Of a stretch of DNA of 47,528 nt, positions 29,567 to 35,700 are shown one piece after another (within the stretch, counting starts at the first letter, position 1; each line of letters begins with the position of its first letter). A program made the position numbers and the translations under genes. The notes under the pieces were generated by a model. That model saw nothing but the letters and a program-made list of their open reading frames with translations, did not search any database and was not told where the DNA came from. The DNA comes from Gammaproteobacteria bacterium (GTDB lineage: Bacteria > Pseudomonadota > Gammaproteobacteria > Steroidobacterales > Steroidobacteraceae). The DNA lies in the NCBI GenBank assembly GCA_016874235.1, contig VGUJ01000013.1, positions 1 through 47,528 on the forward strand. The letters run 5' to 3'.

Positions 29567-30724
29567 TCAGTGAATCGCTTTTAAGCCCTGCTCGAGATCT
29601 CGCCGAAGATCCGACTCCGCTTCGATTCCCACCGACAGCCGCAGTAAACCATCGACTAATCCTGCGGTCGCTCTTGCTTCCGGCTCCATGGCCGCGTGAG
29701 TCATCGTGGGAGGGTGCGCGATCAGGCTCTCCACGCCGCCCAGCGACTCAGCAAGCGAGAACAACTCCAGCGACGAGACGAAACGTTCGACCGCCGGCGT
29801 CCCGCCATCGAGTTCGAGGGTAATGATGGATCCGAACCCTTTTTGCTGCCGTCGCGCGAGCTCGTGTCCGGGATGTGTCGCAAGCCCCGGGTAGTAGAGC
29901 GTCCTGATTCCTGGCCGTCGTGCGAGCCATGCCGCCAATGAATTCGCGTTCGCCTCGTGCAACGCCATTCGCGCGTGCAAGGTACGGAGTCCCCGAAGAG
30001 TCAAGAAACTATCGAAAGCGGAACCCGTCATACCAAGCGCATTCGCCCACCACGCAAGCTGCTGCGCGACATCCGCCTGCGCTGCGATCACCGCACCACC
30101 GACGACGTCGCTATGACCATTGATGTACTTGGTCGTCGAGTGAACAACGATATCCGCCCCCAGTTGAAGAGGATTTTGGAGGGCCGGAGACAAGAAGGTG
30201 TTGTCCACCGCCACCCGCGCGCCCGCGGCATGCGAAAGCTTGGAGACGGCCTCGATGTCGGTGATTCGGAGAAGTGGATTGCTTGGGGTTTCAATCCAAC
30301 ACAGTGCGACCGGTGTGTTGAATGCCGATTGCAGGGCCTGAGGGTCGCCAAAGTTTACGAAGTCGACGACAAAATCACCGCGGCGGTGCCAAGCCGAAAG
30401 CAAGCGGAACGTCCCGCCATAACAGTCGTGCGGCGCGATGATCCGCGAACCGCGAGGGAGGAGTTGCCCCACGAGCGCAATGGCGCCCATCCCTGAGCCG
30501 GTGATGACGGCGCCTTCGCCGCCCTCAAGCCCATTCAAGGCTTCGGCAAGAAGATCGCGTGTGGGGTTGCCCGAGCGCGAGTAGTCGTAGCGACCCTTCT
30601 CTCCAAAACGCGGAAACGCATACGTGGAACTAAGATGAACCGGCGGAACGACGGCACCCGTCAAGACGTCGGTTTCGAGGCCGGCCCTCACCGCCTGCGT
30701 TCTCGGATCTTTTTGACTCGTCAT
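29567..30724 (-). CDS. metB: Cystathionine gamma-synthase/O-acylhomoserine sulfhydrylase
   Basis: This 385-residue PLP enzyme of the Cys/Met metabolism family forms cystathionine (or homocysteine) from an O-acylhomoserine. It has YSRSGNPTRD, the SGMGAI region, WIETPSNPLL, the cofactor Asp in VAVDNTFLSP and the PLP lysine in HSTTKYINGHSD. It follows metX by 23 bases on the same strand and so is expected to be under the same SAM riboswitch transcript. Sulfhydrylase activity cannot be excluded from sequence. Confidence 0.92.
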   Translation of the reverse strand: MTSQKDPRTQAVRAGLETDVLTGAVVPPVHLSSTYAFPRFGEKGRYDYSRSGNPTRDLLAEALNGLEGGEGAVITGSGMGAIALVGQLLPRGSRIIAPHDCYGGTFRLLSAWHRRGDFVVDFVNFGDPQALQSAFNTPVALCWIETPSNPLLRITDIEAVSKLSHAAGARVAVDNTFLSPALQNPLQLGADIVVHSTTKYINGHSDVVGGAVIAAQADVAQQLAWWANALGMTGSAFDSFLTLRGLRTLHARMALHEANANSLAAWLARRPGIRTLYYPGLATHPGHELARRQQKGFGSIITLELDGGTPAVERFVSSLELFSLAESLGGVESLIAHPPTMTHAAMEPEARATAGLVDGLLRLSVGIEAESDLRRDLEQGLKAIH

Positions 30725-30747: not shown

Positions 30748-31818
30748 TTACGCGGTTGGCGGCAGCTCGGCGCTGAAAATCGCTTTAAGTGCATCATGTT
30801 CTTTTAAAAACGCGTCATGCCCGAATACCGACGAGATCTCATGAACGTGTGCGTTCGGCAGTCGCGAACACATCGACTGTATATCGACCGCCGGCACCAA
30901 CTGATCTTGCTTCACCGCAATGGCAACCACCGGAACTGAAATCTGATCGGGGTTGATTTGATGTAGATCAATCGATTCTGAGAGTGTCAGGAAGGAATCG
31001 GGTTGATAACGACGAGCATAGTCGACGCCTCGTGCCATCAGATAGTCCTCAACCGGAAACACAAAACGTCCGTCGCGAACCTCTGCTACCCCGGCGAACC
31101 GACTCGAAAACTCTTCCGCACTGCGGTAGGTCGACATGGCCAACGCCCGCGCAAGCTCGAGTCCCCGCTCAGGTTTACCCGACTCGACGCCGAAACGCAC
31201 GATTCGACGTTGGACGCTTCGCCACGCCGTCGACATGGGACTCGTGCGATCAGCCGCGCTGATGACCACCAATTTTTTCACTCGGTAGGCGTATTGCTCT
31301 GCGAACGCCAAGGCGACCATGCCACCGTACGACGCTCCAATGATCGCATCCAGCTGGTCAATTTGAAGGTGATTCAGGAGACGCAGGAGAAGCTCCCCCT
31401 GATCGTAGGTCGACACCGAGGGAAAGTCCCGACCGTCCTTTGGCCCGCTGGTCGCACCGCTTCCGCCAAGGTAATCGAAGGAAAGAATGCGATAGTGTTC
31501 GGCAGGCAAGGCCAGGCCCACCCCGACAACTTCCGACCACCAGCCAGAGTTCGGATCCTCACCTCGCGCAGCGAAGACCTTGCGATGAGCCGAGATGCCG
31601 CCCAGGGCGACCACAATCGGCGCAGACGGCGGGCCCGTTAGGCGCCAGCCAATTTTGAGGGTATCGACTCGTCCGCCGTGACGCAGGGGTAACGTCGTGA
31701 CCGATTCCAGCATCCCTTCGCGACAGTCGGAATAGACCTCGCCCCTCTCAACGGAGGCGCTCCCGGACCCGGATTTTTGATGAGTGGACGACGTCATGTA
31801 TGCCTCAAGATCGTTCAT
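30748..31818 (-). CDS. metX: MetX-family homoserine O-acyltransferase
   Basis: The 356-residue alpha/beta hydrolase should activate homoserine with an acyl group for methionine synthesis. The nucleophile serine is in GASYGGMVAL, and FGHDAFLKEHD holds the catalytic His. The oxyanion region reads VALGGISAHRK where many acetyltransferases have an LTG motif, so acetyl versus succinyl donor (and even serine as acceptor, known in this family) is not settled. The ATG at 31818 has GGGAGG six bases upstream. Both elements are embedded in the riboswitch (P4 and P1). The 54-codon upstream extension lies within the riboswitch and is rejected. Confidence 0.87.
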   Translation of the reverse strand: MNDLEAYMTSSTHQKSGSGSASVERGEVYSDCREGMLESVTTLPLRHGGRVDTLKIGWRLTGPPSAPIVVALGGISAHRKVFAARGEDPNSGWWSEVVGVGLALPAEHYRILSFDYLGGSGATSGPKDGRDFPSVSTYDQGELLLRLLNHLQIDQLDAIIGASYGGMVALAFAEQYAYRVKKLVVISAADRTSPMSTAWRSVQRRIVRFGVESGKPERGLELARALAMSTYRSAEEFSSRFAGVAEVRDGRFVFPVEDYLMARGVDYARRYQPDSFLTLSESIDLHQINPDQISVPVVAIAVKQDQLVPAVDIQSMCSRLPNAHVHEISSVFGHDAFLKEHDALKAIFSAELPPTA

Positions 31819-31929
31819 CTGACGCCTCCCTTTCGGGATTGCGCGGAGTTGGCACCTTAACCAGAGCTGGCGAGCTCTGGCGGTTGCCCCGGCGTCTATG
31901 GGCCTTTCCCTCAGCCGGTCTCGATGAAC
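31813..31929 (-). promoter_or_regulatory. SAM-I (S-box) type riboswitch overlapping the metX start
   Basis: The 117-base minus-strand RNA has the S-box layout. P1 is GTTCATC with GATGAAC, seven perfect pairs. P2 is closed by CCGGC/GCCGG with internal UGA, GGGAAAGGCCC and AUAGAC. GGCAACC follows, then P3 CCAGAGCT/AGCTCTGG, the conserved AAGGTGCCAACTCC, and P4 TCCC-GAAA-GGGA. The 3' strand of P1 contains the metX ATG (31818-31816), and the ribosome site GGGAGG is in the 3' side of P4. SAM binding would therefore hide start codon and ribosome site directly. No separate terminator is visible. Confidence 0.9.
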
Positions 31930-31935
31930 AGGTGG

Positions 31936-31965
31936 ATGATAATCCGCCGCCATGAGGAGAGTCAA
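31936..31965 (-). promoter_or_regulatory. Promoter of the metX-metB transcript
   Basis: TTGACT (31965-31960) and TATCAT (31941-31936) are separated by 18 bases, each one base from consensus. The start would be near 31929, exactly the first base of riboswitch helix P1. Confidence 0.7.
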
Positions 31966-31983: not shown

Positions 31984-31992
31984 TGCTACAAT
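31984..31992 (+). promoter_or_regulatory. Extended -10 promoter of the yerC-his operon
   Basis: TGCTACAAT is an extended -10 element. Transcription would start near 31999, inside the adjacent palindrome, leaving a leader of about 42 bases before yerC. No clear -35 box is seen. Confidence 0.5.
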
Positions 31993-32013
31993 GTTCTAAC
32001 GTATTAAAACATT
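31990..32013. promoter_or_regulatory. Probable operator for the TrpR-like regulator
   Basis: AATGTTCTAA and TTAAAACATT form an inverted repeat matching at 9 of 10 positions around a central CGTA. It overlaps the -10 box and start of the yerC-his promoter. A second, looser pair, TAACGT (31997-32002) and ACGTTA (32017-32022), interleaves with it. Position directly before a TrpR-family gene suggests autoregulation of the his operon. Confidence 0.5.
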
Positions 32014-32040
32014 AGCACGTTAAATCACGCGGAAGATCAC

Positions 32041-32373
32041 ATGAAAACCCATGCTCGGCAATCGCCTCGACAAGAAGCCAAGGCGGAGCGCAATCTGTAT
32101 CAGGCCGTGCTAACCCTCCGATCCGTCGAGGAGTGCCGTGCGTTCTTCCGTGACCTCTGCACCCCGGCTGAGCTTCAAGCGATGTACGACCGGTGGGCCG
32201 TTGTCGAGTGGCTCGAGCGCGGTCTACCTTATCGCGAGATTCATAAGCTCACCGGCGTCAGCGTCACCACCATTACCCGAGTGGCGAGGTATGTCGGTTC
32301 CGGCAATGGCGGATACGACATCGCGGCACGCCGAGTGGCCAGCGCAAAGACTGCCCACTCAGCCGGTCGCTAA
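32041..32373 (+). CDS. TrpR/YerC-family transcriptional regulator
   Basis: The 110-residue protein matches the TrpR-related YerC/YecD family: an N-terminal helix bundle (LTLRSVEECRAFFRDLCTPA, then ELQAMYDRWAVVEWL) and a helix-turn-helix YREIHKLTGVSVTTITRVAR with the typical GGYD after it. It heads the histidine operon. Its stop codon lies within the ribosome site of hisG. By position and by family precedent for TrpR-like regulators next to amino acid operons, it probably senses histidine or a related signal and represses its own operon through the palindrome upstream. The ligand is inference. Confidence 0.85.
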   Translation: MKTHARQSPRQEAKAERNLYQAVLTLRSVEECRAFFRDLCTPAELQAMYDRWAVVEWLERGLPYREIHKLTGVSVTTITRVARYVGSGNGGYDIAARRVASAKTAHSAGR

Positions 32374-32383
32374 GGAGCACACC

Positions 32384-33283
32384 ATGGAAAAACCCTTGCG
32401 CCTCAAACTTGCCGTTCAAAAATCCGGTCGTCTGACCGAGCTGTCGACCGATTTACTGGTTCGATGTGGGTTGAAGTTCTCGCGTGCCAAGGATCAACTC
32501 CTCGGCTTCGGCGAGAACATGCCGCTCGATCTACTTTTTGTTCGTGACGATGACATTCCGGATTTAGTCGAGGAAGACGTGTGTGATCTCGGCCTCGTGG
32601 GCCTCAACGTCGTCGAAGAAAAGAAACTCGAACTGGCTGCCCGAGGATACTCTGCTCGATTCGAAATCCTTCGTTCACTCGACTTTGGTCGCTGCCGTCT
32701 GTCCATCGCTGTACCCGATGAAGTCATCTGGAACGGACCCTCCTCACTCGAAGGGCGTCGGATTGCCACGACCTATCCCTACGCATTGGCGAAGTGGCTG
32801 ACCGATCGTCGGATACGCGCCGAAATCGTGACGCTCTCTGGAGCCGTTGAAATCGCGCCGCGACTCGGCAGAGCGGACGCCATATGCGACCTCGTGTCGA
32901 CCGGTTCGACCCTTGAGGCCAATCGACTTCGCGAGGTCGAGGTGCTTCTTGAGAGTCACGCAGTGCTCGTACGAACGCCCGTCGAACTCCCCAAAGAGAA
33001 GTCCGACTGGGTAGCGCGCTTACTCATGCGTATCGACGGGGTTCAGCAAGTGCGCGAGAGCAAGTACATCATGCTACACGCGCCTCGCGCAGCGCTCCCG
33101 GCTATTCGAAGTCTTCTGCCTGGCAGCGAGTCTCCAACTATCATGCCTCTCGAGGGCAGCGCGGATAAGGTCGCGATTCATGCGGTATGCCGAGAAAACG
33201 TCTTCTGGGAAACGCTCGAGGCGCTTAAGACGGCAGGCGCCAGCTCTTTGCTGGTCCTTCCCGTCGAGAAAATGTTGGCATGA
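32384..33283 (+). CDS. hisG: ATP phosphoribosyltransferase, long form
   Basis: This 299-residue enzyme joins ATP and PRPP, the first and feedback-controlled step of histidine synthesis. It starts LRLKLAVQKSGRLTE, has the PRPP-binding ADAICDLVSTGSTLEAN and a C-terminal regulatory ACT-like domain, so it is the long, HisZ-independent form. AGGAG lies six bases before the ATG. The longer upstream frame overlaps yerC and is not used. Its stop overlaps the next start by ATGA. Confidence 0.95.
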   Translation: MEKPLRLKLAVQKSGRLTELSTDLLVRCGLKFSRAKDQLLGFGENMPLDLLFVRDDDIPDLVEEDVCDLGLVGLNVVEEKKLELAARGYSARFEILRSLDFGRCRLSIAVPDEVIWNGPSSLEGRRIATTYPYALAKWLTDRRIRAEIVTLSGAVEIAPRLGRADAICDLVSTGSTLEANRLREVEVLLESHAVLVRTPVELPKEKSDWVARLLMRIDGVQQVRESKYIMLHAPRAALPAIRSLLPGSESPTIMPLEGSADKVAIHAVCRENVFWETLEALKTAGASSLLVLPVEKMLA

Positions 33284-35700
33284 TGTTGCCGATCTTCAAC
33301 TACCCGAGCTTGAGCGCGGCGGAGCGCGACGCAGCCTTATCGCGACCCGCGGCCGAAGATCGCGAATCGATCATGGCGCTCGTCCGCGAGACGGTCCTGC
33401 GTGTCCGCAATGAAGGAGACACGGCCCTCCTCGACTACGCACGACGCTTTGACGGTGGCGCGCCGGTCACTCTTCGTGTCCCGCGGTCAGAGGTCGATGC
33501 TGCCCTGCAGCGCGTTGGTGAAAACGCCCTCGTCGCGTTGCGGCGTGCAATCGATAACGTTCGGCGTTTCCATACGGCGCAAGGGACACCGCCGTTGTCG
33601 GTCGTAACCTCTCCCGGAGTTGTCTGCGAGCGCATTGTTCGCCCGATCGATGCAGTCGGGCTTTACGTTCCCGGCGGTCGTGCGCCTTTACCCTCTGCAC
33701 TCATCATGTCGGCCATTCCCGCTGGCATCGCAGGGTGTAAAAGACGAGTGATGTGTTCACCGGGAACACAAGAAGGACGAATCGACCCCATCATCCTTGC
33801 CACGGCACGGCTATGCGGCATCGACGAGATATTCGCGATCGGCGGTGCCCAAGCCATCGCCGCCATGGCGTATGGGACGGCTACGATCCCGAAGGTAGAC
33901 AAAATCTTTGGCCCCGGATCCGCCTGGGTCACCGCTGCAAAACAGATCGTCGCCAGTGACCCGGGGGGCGCCGCGCTCGATTTGCCTGCCGGGCCTTCCG
34001 AGGTGCTCGTCATTGCCGACGAGTTCGCAAATCCTGCCTTCGTGGCCGCCGATCTCCTCGCTCAGGCCGAACATGACCCGCTCTCCCAGGCCATTCTCAT
34101 CACGACGTCGAGTTCTCTCGCCGAAGCAGTTCGACGACACGCAATCGAGTTTCGAAAGTCTCTGTCCCGTGGCGAAATTTTAGATCAGTCGCTGAGCCGC
34201 AGTCGCATCGTCATCGTCGATACTCTCGCCGAAGCGGTCTCCATCTCGAATGACTACGCGCCTGAGCATCTCATTTTGCAAATCAAAGCGCCGCGTCGTT
34301 GGCTCGATGAAATCCGTTCTGTAGGCTCCGTGTTTATGGGTCCATGGAGCCCTGAGCCGATGGGCGATTATTGCTCCGGCACCAACCATGTTTTACCCAC
34401 CTATGGTTACGCCCGCGCGTACAGCGGACTATCACTCTCTGACTTTCAACGACGAATCACCGTTCAAGAGCTCTCTCGAGAGGGCTTACTCAATCTTGGC
34501 CCGACTGCGAGCACTCTCGCACGACTCGAAGGACTCGACGCTCATGCACTTGCGGTCGACCTTCGCCTTAAGGCGCTTCAAGACTCGGCCGAGTCAGAGC
34601 CCACTGACACCCGTCGAAACGACCTCCTCTCGCGGCTTGCACGACCGGCAATCGTGTCGATGCGTGCGTATGAACATGCTCATTGGGACGCGCGTTTTGA
34701 GCGCTTGCATGCCAACGAGTCCCCGTGGCCGCCTCCGATCGGAAGTGAGGGCGAACGCCTCGCGCTCCATCGTTATCCTGAGCCACAACCGCCAGCCCTG
34801 ATTGAAGCCCTCGCCCACACCTTTGGCGTCTCGAGCGACGATCTGTTGGTCACGCGGGGTAGCGACGAAGGCATCGATCTGCTGACTCGAACATTTTGCG
34901 AAGCGGGACGCGACGCCGTCGTGGTGTGTCCGCCTACTTTTGGTATGTACGCCGTCGCGGCGGCCACCCAAGGCGCGCAGATCCTCGAAGCCCCGCTTAC
35001 GAACGAATTCGAGCTCGACATCGCTGCGATCAAGGCCAATGTCGATGAGGGCGCTAAAATTCTTTGGATATGCTCGCCGAATAATCCGACGGGTAATGCG
35101 TTTGCAAGTACGTGTATCGAATCTTTGCTCGACTACGCTCGAGATCGATGCGTCGTCGTGATCGACGAGGCCTATGCTGAGTATTCGACCGCGCCCTCAG
35201 CAATCAGCTTTAGGGAGCGGTACCCACAATTGGTGGTACTAAAAACCCTCTCCAAGGCGTACGGATTGGCCGGGGCCCGGGTTGGCGCGGTGATTGCCGA
35301 ACCGTCTGTCATCGCCCTCCTGCGAAAGATTGTCCCGCCCTACTCCATTTCGAGTGCCAGCATCGATGAAGCGATACGGGTTTTGCACGAGGGGTCTCGA
35401 GCCGTGATCGCCTCGAGGGTCGATACCATCGTGAAAGAGCGGGACCGTGTGGCCGCCCAACTGGCATCGTCACCGTTGATCCAAAAAATTTACCGAAGTG
35501 ACAGTAACTTTTTACTCATCGAGTCGACAGCGGCTGCGTCGATACTCGCGTGTCTGCGGGACATCGGCATTCTCGTCCGAGATTTCTCGGGACGTGGCCC
35601 GCTAGGTCAAGCTGTTCGGATCACCATCGGAACTCCGGCGCAAAACGATCGGATCATCGAGGCGTTGTGCTCAACGTTCTCAGGGAGAGCACTCCAATGA
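33280..35700 (+). CDS. hisDC: Fused histidinol dehydrogenase-histidinol-phosphate aminotransferase
   Basis: One uninterrupted 806-residue frame holds two normally separate enzymes. Residues 1 to about 433 are HisD: GPGSAWVTAAKQIV, zinc ligands in LLAQAEHDPLSQ, the catalytic EH in NDYAPEHLIL, GDYCSGTNHVLPT and the final EGLDAHALAVDLR. A polar linker (about 434-446, QDSAESEPTDTRRN) leads into HisC (about 447-806): SPNNPTGN, VVIDEAYAEYS, the PLP lysine in LKTLSKAYGLAGARVG and a final RITIGTPAQND. HisD performs the last two oxidations and HisC the transamination. Both active sites look complete. The ATG at 33280 overlaps the hisG stop, and the stop overlaps hisB by ATGA, so the frame fits the operon's dense packing. 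Confidence 0.93.
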   Translation: MMLPIFNYPSLSAAERDAALSRPAAEDRESIMALVRETVLRVRNEGDTALLDYARRFDGGAPVTLRVPRSEVDAALQRVGENALVALRRAIDNVRRFHTAQGTPPLSVVTSPGVVCERIVRPIDAVGLYVPGGRAPLPSALIMSAIPAGIAGCKRRVMCSPGTQEGRIDPIILATARLCGIDEIFAIGGAQAIAAMAYGTATIPKVDKIFGPGSAWVTAAKQIVASDPGGAALDLPAGPSEVLVIADEFANPAFVAADLLAQAEHDPLSQAILITTSSSLAEAVRRHAIEFRKSLSRGEILDQSLSRSRIVIVDTLAEAVSISNDYAPEHLILQIKAPRRWLDEIRSVGSVFMGPWSPEPMGDYCSGTNHVLPTYGYARAYSGLSLSDFQRRITVQELSREGLLNLGPTASTLARLEGLDAHALAVDLRLKALQDSAESEPTDTRRNDLLSRLARPAIVSMRAYEHAHWDARFERLHANESPWPPPIGSEGERLALHRYPEPQPPALIEALAHTFGVSSDDLLVTRGSDEGIDLLTRTFCEAGRDAVVVCPPTFGMYAVAAATQGAQILEAPLTNEFELDIAAIKANVDEGAKILWICSPNNPTGNAFASTCIESLLDYARDRCVVVIDEAYAEYSTAPSAISFRERYPQLVVLKTLSKAYGLAGARVGAVIAEPSVIALLRKIVPPYSISSASIDEAIRVLHEGSRAVIASRVDTIVKERDRVAAQLASSPLIQKIYRSDSNFLLIESTAAASILACLRDIGILVRDFSGRGPLGQAVRITIGTPAQNDRIIEALCSTFSGRALQ

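Follow-up and report, generated by a model that had tools for sequence, protein, structure and literature searches.

The metX-metB locus and its SAM-I aptamer

The window analysed here, the whole 47,528-nucleotide (nt) stretch of contig VGUJ01000013.1 (assembly GCA_016874235.1, a gammaproteobacterium of the Steroidobacteraceae), carries a riboswitch aptamer of the S-adenosylmethionine (SAM) class SAM-I, followed in the same direction by metX and metB, the methionine/SAM-gene context looked for in this class (Table 1). Two candidate start codons of metX are considered below, AUG1 inside the 3' strand of the closing helix P1 and AUG2 immediately after the 14-nt spacer that follows P1, with their respective Shine-Dalgarno (SD) sequences SD1 and SD2. 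The covariance search gave a full-length match to RF00162 at 31930-31812 of the minus strand (model positions 1-108 of 108, 65.5 bits, E 3.9e-13, for a gathering score of 44.4 bits). SAM-I is the sole Rfam match at threshold within the window, and the 1.8-Mb assembly, rated 95% complete, holds this single SAM-I match.

Table 1. Features of the riboswitch leader and of the downstream genes (positions in the window; descending positions follow the reading direction of the minus strand).
Feature	Position	Strand	Remarks
sigma-70-like promoter	31936..31965	-	TTGACT 31965-31960, 18 nt, TATCAT 31941-31936
SAM-I (S-box) riboswitch aptamer	31812..31930	-	RF00162 match and predicted fold
P1 5' strand	31923..31930 (31930-31923)	-	UGUUCAUC; covariance alignment
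P4 hairpin	31822..31844	-	-11.6 kcal/mol folded alone
SD1, GGGAGG	31825..31830 (31830-31825)	-	3' half of P4, 6 nt before AUG1
P1 3' strand	31812..31819 (31819-31812)	-	GAUGAACG; holds AUG1
AUG1	31816..31818 (31818-31816)	-	inside P1 3' strand; in frame with metX; probably not the main start
P1-AUG2 spacer, 14 nt	31798..31811	-	contains SD2; equal length in six usable members of the genus
SD2, GAGG	31806-31803	-	starts 5 nt 3' of P1
metX, from AUG2	30748..31797	-	homoserine O-succinyltransferase type; 349 amino acids; NF006449, 350.8 bits
metB	29567..30724	-	cystathionine gamma-synthase; TIGR02080, 560.7 bits; second gene of the presumed operon

The P1-P4 four-way junction is found both in the RF00162 alignment and in the fold of 31790-31935, whose minimum-energy structure (-56.5 kcal/mol, z -2.3, equalled by 4 of 200 shuffles) shows the expected P1 and junction. 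The SAM-I aptamer before metX is real, well placed and ordinary. Several elements described in the initial annotation, which had been made from the letters of the sequence, were recovered as such: a SAM-class aptamer, for which a covariance check had been proposed; the pairing of GUUCAUC with GAUGAAC in P1, with an AUG in the metX frame in the 3' strand and GGGAGG in P4; and the lack of a separate terminator or sequestering stem. The scan of the window found no terminator-like site between the aptamer and metX, as a transcription-attenuating SAM-I would have, and transcription attenuation was rejected on this ground. A separate anti-SD stem before metX was likewise rejected, 14 nt alone lying between P1 and AUG2.

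The promoter matches 10 of the 12 consensus bases, and its end (31936) is separated from P1 by five bases; shuffled sequence yields on average 0.1 such sites. A similar promoter, separated from P1 by 4-11 bases and most often by five or six, stands before 170 of 224 aptamer loci; among 2240 upstream stretches that had been shuffled, 27 have one so placed. Since this placement recurs across loci, the prediction of an RNA start near the first P1 base is well founded, and the start announced initially at the first P1 base itself is probably there or beside it.

Position of the metX start

AUG1 lies in frame with metX, and its SD sequence (-11.3 kcal/mol) ranks first when the best starts of the 33 long open reading frames (ORFs) examined in the window are compared; a value of -11 kcal/mol or lower is reached by 0.5% of 198 internal ATGs, and an SD this strong accompanies the ATG in one of the 203 non-compact aptamers that have it. 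These observations favour the reading of the initial annotation, in which MetX starts at AUG1 with SD1 in P4, so that on SAM binding the aptamer would conceal both the start codon and the ribosome site that it contains. An AUG is nevertheless expected at this place from the consensus. Among the covariance-located loci, 45 of 46 have an ATG within the last nine aptamer bases, and because the local P1 consensus around it is AGATGAG, its presence in P1 is no evidence of a start. Judged by a rough rule, most of the loci that have a metX match start this gene about 60-200 nt past P1, and the P1 AUG is retained where metX begins about 100 nt away. In addition, SD1 is buried in P4 (-11.6 kcal/mol alone) with or without SAM.

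Compact loci are defined here by a metX start 10-14 nt after P1 (individual loci are given by L numbers). In four of the 11 (the window, L030, L046 and L094) the frame opened by AUG1 continues into metX. In the seven others it is unable to start MetX, being closed by a stop within 3-7 codons: three codons in L038, L041 and L045 (MSG* or MGG*), MDGELP* in L146, L151 and L152, and MSGEHKS* in L020. AUG2, for its part, is found exactly 14 nt past P1 in all six usable compact loci of the window's genus (the window, L030, L046, L038, L041 and L045). In L041 and L046 this +14 codon is the sole ATG, GTG or TTG from there to the conserved MetX core, AUG1 being stop-closed in L041. At -5.6 kcal/mol, SD2 is unexceptional among the genes of the window, whose best starts have a median of -6.2 and whose internal ATGs a median of -2.4. 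Codon substitutions do not discriminate between the two starts: over the seven codons between AUG1 and AUG2, three pairs show nine amino-acid-changing substitutions against one, and the stretch after AUG2 has a like pattern (28 against 6). On this sequence comparison AUG2 (31797) is rather likely to be the main metX start in the window, and a MetX begun at AUG1 under the control of its own aptamer appears unlikely.

The compact layout and its origin

Compact calls were made for 11 of 129 SAM-I/metX loci, in three genera. The six loci of the window's genus all start at +14, whereas L146, L151 and L152 have a TTG at +10, L094 a GTG at +11 and L020 an ATG at +13. The apparent TTG or GTG starts of L146, L151, L152 and L094, four loci of one genus, lie 10-11 nt past the aptamer and are preceded by GGAGA; in the first three of these loci metX might instead start at a GTG at +43. 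The conserved MetX core begins at +25 to +79 in L046, L041, L146 and L020, which represent all three genera, and at +83 or beyond in every non-compact match.

In the maximum-likelihood tree of the 129 MetX fragments, the compact label changes four times (3-4 in the bootstraps), at least two of these changes being forced by well-supported branches. The clade of the window (98/87 support) places the non-compact loci L005, L006, L011 and L013 beside the six compact ones. Because the tree needs four changes, the platform, the part of the leader that follows the aptamer, seems to have been lost more than once among these relatives. The separate control stem was probably lost, and not gained, from a longer platform kept by most metX-bearing relatives. 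The relatives offer a natural series in which one aptamer and one gene occur either with an expression platform between them or lacking it. Such a series could be used to ask what the minimal RNA for SAM-I translational control is, and whether a conserved AUG of the aptamer can be turned into a start codon.

Proposed mechanism and its alternatives

We propose that metX-metB is controlled by a 'direct' translational OFF-type SAM-I riboswitch, an interpretation that we regard as probable. Control is most likely translational, with the aptamer making up almost the entire leader. The RNA would begin at about the first P1 base. At low SAM, P1 would be open; its 3' strand would then be free, as would the GAGG-containing spacer of 14 nt, and the 30S subunit could load at AUG2. 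With SAM bound, P1 would close and its last base would stand at -15 from AUG2, a position within the stretch that a 30S subunit must occupy; a SAM-stabilised P1 would exclude the subunit. The closed aptamer would abut the SD site, cover AUG1 and keep the ribosome out by steric repression, with no part played by a separate anti-SD or terminator stem.

The interpretation given in the initial annotation is partly supported. The leader is almost all aptamer as had been said, except that a 14-nt spacer with its own GAGG precedes the likely start AUG2. That the aptamer itself blocks translation is retained as the most likely mode of action, with P1 beside SD2, rather than the hiding of AUG1, as the means. 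The start placed at the P1 AUG, in frame and provided with the strongest SD of the window, is doubtful, this AUG being a consensus one that is stop-closed in 7 of 11 compact loci while AUG2 is kept in 6 of 6; use of both starts is conceivable.

Several observations weigh against the proposed mechanism. The first concerns the ON state. When the P1 5' strand was blocked in the folds of 12 loci (L040 included, see below), the SD region was not released consistently: by its mean unpaired probability, the spacer became more accessible in 4 loci and less so in 7, with no change in 1. For the window, this value went from 0.55 up to 0.66, and that of the start codon fell from 0.40 to 0.26. Because the P1-blocked folds free the SD region inconsistently, the scheme leaves the ON state unexplained. 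A conserved alternative ON-state pairing was also sought in the P1-blocked folds of the 12 compact loci, which gave no common answer. Moreover, when the window fold was extended by 40 nt of metX, P1 was lost from the minimum-energy structure. Other points bear on the start itself: AUG1 carries a stronger SD than AUG2; in the other seven compact loci the MetX core lies at +86 to +128 and overlaps the non-compact range; and the cores of L038 and L045 (+128 and +116) are as far away as in non-compact loci, so that their compact call leans on L041. Finally, an in-frame ATG, GTG or TTG at 25 nt or less from P1 is also found in 13 of 118 non-compact loci, for which reason nearness to P1 alone is no proof of a start; such near starts not being rare, our confidence in the scheme is slightly lowered.

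The state of P1 in the compact loci, also among the points that weigh against the scheme, raises the further question of whether the aptamer is a decayed remnant that stopped regulating after the loss of the platform. Positions 7 and 8 of P1 are paired in just 6 and 7 of the 11 compact loci, although they are frequently unpaired in non-compact loci too, and the 65.5 bits of the window aptamer are low for its relatives, most of which score 70-90. Of the 66 cells that positions 1-6 make up in the 11 loci, 65 are paired, and at 4-6 the pairs are altered while pairing is kept. With a full-length match above the cut-off, a conserved promoter spacing and a constant distance to AUG2 besides, decay seems very improbable.

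A different role for AUG1 was also considered, in which it would be a SAM-gated codon that opens a leader frame loading ribosomes for metX, either as an in-frame fusion or as a mini-ORF acting by termination-reinitiation. Its arrangement in the compact loci is suggestive: in all 11, AUG1 is either fused to metX (4) or opens a frame of 3-7 codons whose stop lies at the metX start or ahead of it (7), and stop and start overlap as ATGA in L020 and as TTGA in L146, L151 and L152, which belong to one genus. AUG1 ORFs of at most seven codons occur in just 9 of 203 non-compact loci. The SD of AUG1 has a median of -6.3 kcal/mol in compact loci (n=11) against -2.8 in non-compact ones (n=127; P 1e-5 in a rank test that ignores kinship), and AUGA coupling in a riboswitch leader has been shown elsewhere (PMC11260477). 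The 11 loci, however, represent 3-4 independent events, and the tests were framed after the data had been seen. Counted by lineage, an SD of at least the strength of -5.8 is seen in 3 of 4 groups, for a background of 21 of 203 among the non-compact loci (P about 0.004, with a cut-off set post hoc). Furthermore, L020, which has the clearest overlap, is without an SD at AUG1 (+1.2), the stops are partly a by-product of the SD2 and start sequences, and SD1 is hidden by P4. We consequently give the ribosome-loading leader frame a low probability. The wider idea that the consensus P1 AUG was recruited as a SAM-gated start used at low SAM, giving an N-terminally extended MetX in the window or a leader peptide of 3-7 codons elsewhere, coupled to metX in some species by overlap of stop and start codons, and that this arose on three or four occasions in the course of platform loss, is tentative, and we would rather doubt it than accept it. 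If true, regulated initiation would take place within the conserved helix of the aptamer itself.

Relatives examined and counting choices

Within the family, 187 of 217 genomes gave RF00162 matches above the cut-off; of the genomes sampled more widely, 191 of 296 from the order and 6 of 274 from the class did so. The 224 aptamer loci examined include a metX match in 129 of the first 147 and in 31 of the next 77; the other 18 of the first 147, without such a match, were left unsorted. The later 77 loci come from the family and the order, and in the 31 with a metX match the MetX core is never nearer than +83; the remaining 46 were counted without an assigned next gene or its start. L205, the nearest of these later loci, has AUG1 in frame and an AAGGAG-GTG start further downstream, and was counted non-compact. 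No further compact locus was added, the genera of L094 and L020 comprising 4 and 1 genomes, all already included.

The metX starts were chosen by a simple SD rule and some were then reset by eye. Under the rule, the start fell on AUG1 in the window, L030, L094 and L012, at +21 in L005 and L013, at -83 in L051 and at -23 in L020, and L123 and L133 received none. The window and L030 were reset to +14, L094 to the GTG at +11 and L020 to the ATG at +13. L012, which has AUG1 and +5 in frame and further starts near +101, was counted non-compact, as were L005 and L013, whose sister loci L006 and L011 are closed up to +84. L047 was excluded as a copy of L046 (contig of equal length, identical aptamer), and L040 was excluded from the counts yet kept among the 12 folded loci. 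In L040 (G021:C10) the MetX N-terminus passes into an unrelated frame, and another SAM-I locus, L039, which is of a different type, lies in the same genome; this genome is probably chimeric or a mixed bin. Loci after L046 were located by a pattern requiring AGAT followed by two purines, which biases the count of ATG in 215 of 224 loci; the pattern search missed L053, L065, L068, L095 and L096. The SAM-I loci L157, L160, L161 and L165 (family f7), with no metX match in the stretch examined, likewise have a strong SD at the P1 AUG (-9.3 to -10.6).

The 23 loci from named organisms are mostly Lysobacter, Luteimonas and Xanthomonas-like, at 32-43% identity; one relative of the named set, a gammaproteobacterial metagenome-assembled genome at 66% identity, is the same contig as L046. 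Because Xanthomonas massiliensis adjoins a 'same class' genome in the MetX tree, Xanthomonas is placed in the class of the window and not in its order.

Neighbouring genes

Divergently from metX, a YerC/YecD gene related to TrpR (TIGR02531; window 32041-32373, plus strand) lies directly before hisG (TIGR00070), and A+T-rich inverted repeats are found just upstream of it at 31990-32027. Its product may be a regulator of the his operon. Further on, 33280-35700 (plus strand) encodes a hisD-hisC fusion, one frame of 806 amino acids with TIGR00069 at 35-429 and TIGR01141 at 456-796.

Comparison with known systems

In the SAM-II, SAM-III, SAM-V and SAM/S-adenosylhomocysteine (SAH) classes, the ribosome site belongs to the aptamer. 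These are different folds, and the window matches SAM-I alone in Rfam. The titles and abstracts found in the open-licence literature do not name a SAM-I P1 AUG used as a start.

In Mycobacterium tuberculosis, the B12 riboswitch leaders of metE and ppe2 contain translated upstream ORFs with an AUGA overlap and termination-reinitiation (PMC11260477). They are a possible parallel to the short AUG1 frames, by the short leader ORF and the AUGA overlap; ligand and fold are different, and translation of the leader ORF is shown there whereas it is hypothetical here.

Closer to the window is the met-operon SAM-I riboswitch of Xanthomonas campestris, in which translation has been shown to be the main level of control (PMC7270179). 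Its leader of about 200 nt comprises a platform P5-P7 with an anti-SD and an anti-AUG and also binds uncharged initiator tRNA (PMC7270179); the aptamer-like region is described as nt 1-120 of a 190-nt leader, with 5' rapid amplification of cDNA ends (5'-RACE) named for the start site (PMC6230763). The two systems share the class of bacteria and the aptamer class, and have similar target genes (homoserine O-succinyltransferase and metB). In contrast with X. campestris, the 14 nt between P1 and AUG2 leave no room here for a separate anti-SD platform.

A direct riboswitch is defined as one with a start codon at most 15 nt from the aptamer core, SAM-I being among the classes where this type is commonest (PMC2258182). 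In SAM-I riboswitches of this type, the 3' side of P1 incorporates the ribosome site (Barrick and Breaker 2007, PMC2258182). The present locus has AUG2 14 nt after P1 and AUG1 inside it, both within this distance. It differs from the published description in that the ribosome site is not within the P1 3' strand, SD2 being just 3' of P1 and SD1 in P4, and in belonging to a gammaproteobacterial family in which most metX loci have a longer leader. The unusual character initially attributed to the locus is thus borne out by the missing platform, found in 11 of 129 loci, but not as a novelty, the direct SAM-I type having already been described (PMC2258182). The lack of a platform is unusual yet has a precedent, and the window riboswitch, as judged from its sequence, fits the published sorting rule for direct riboswitches and is in this respect of a known type.
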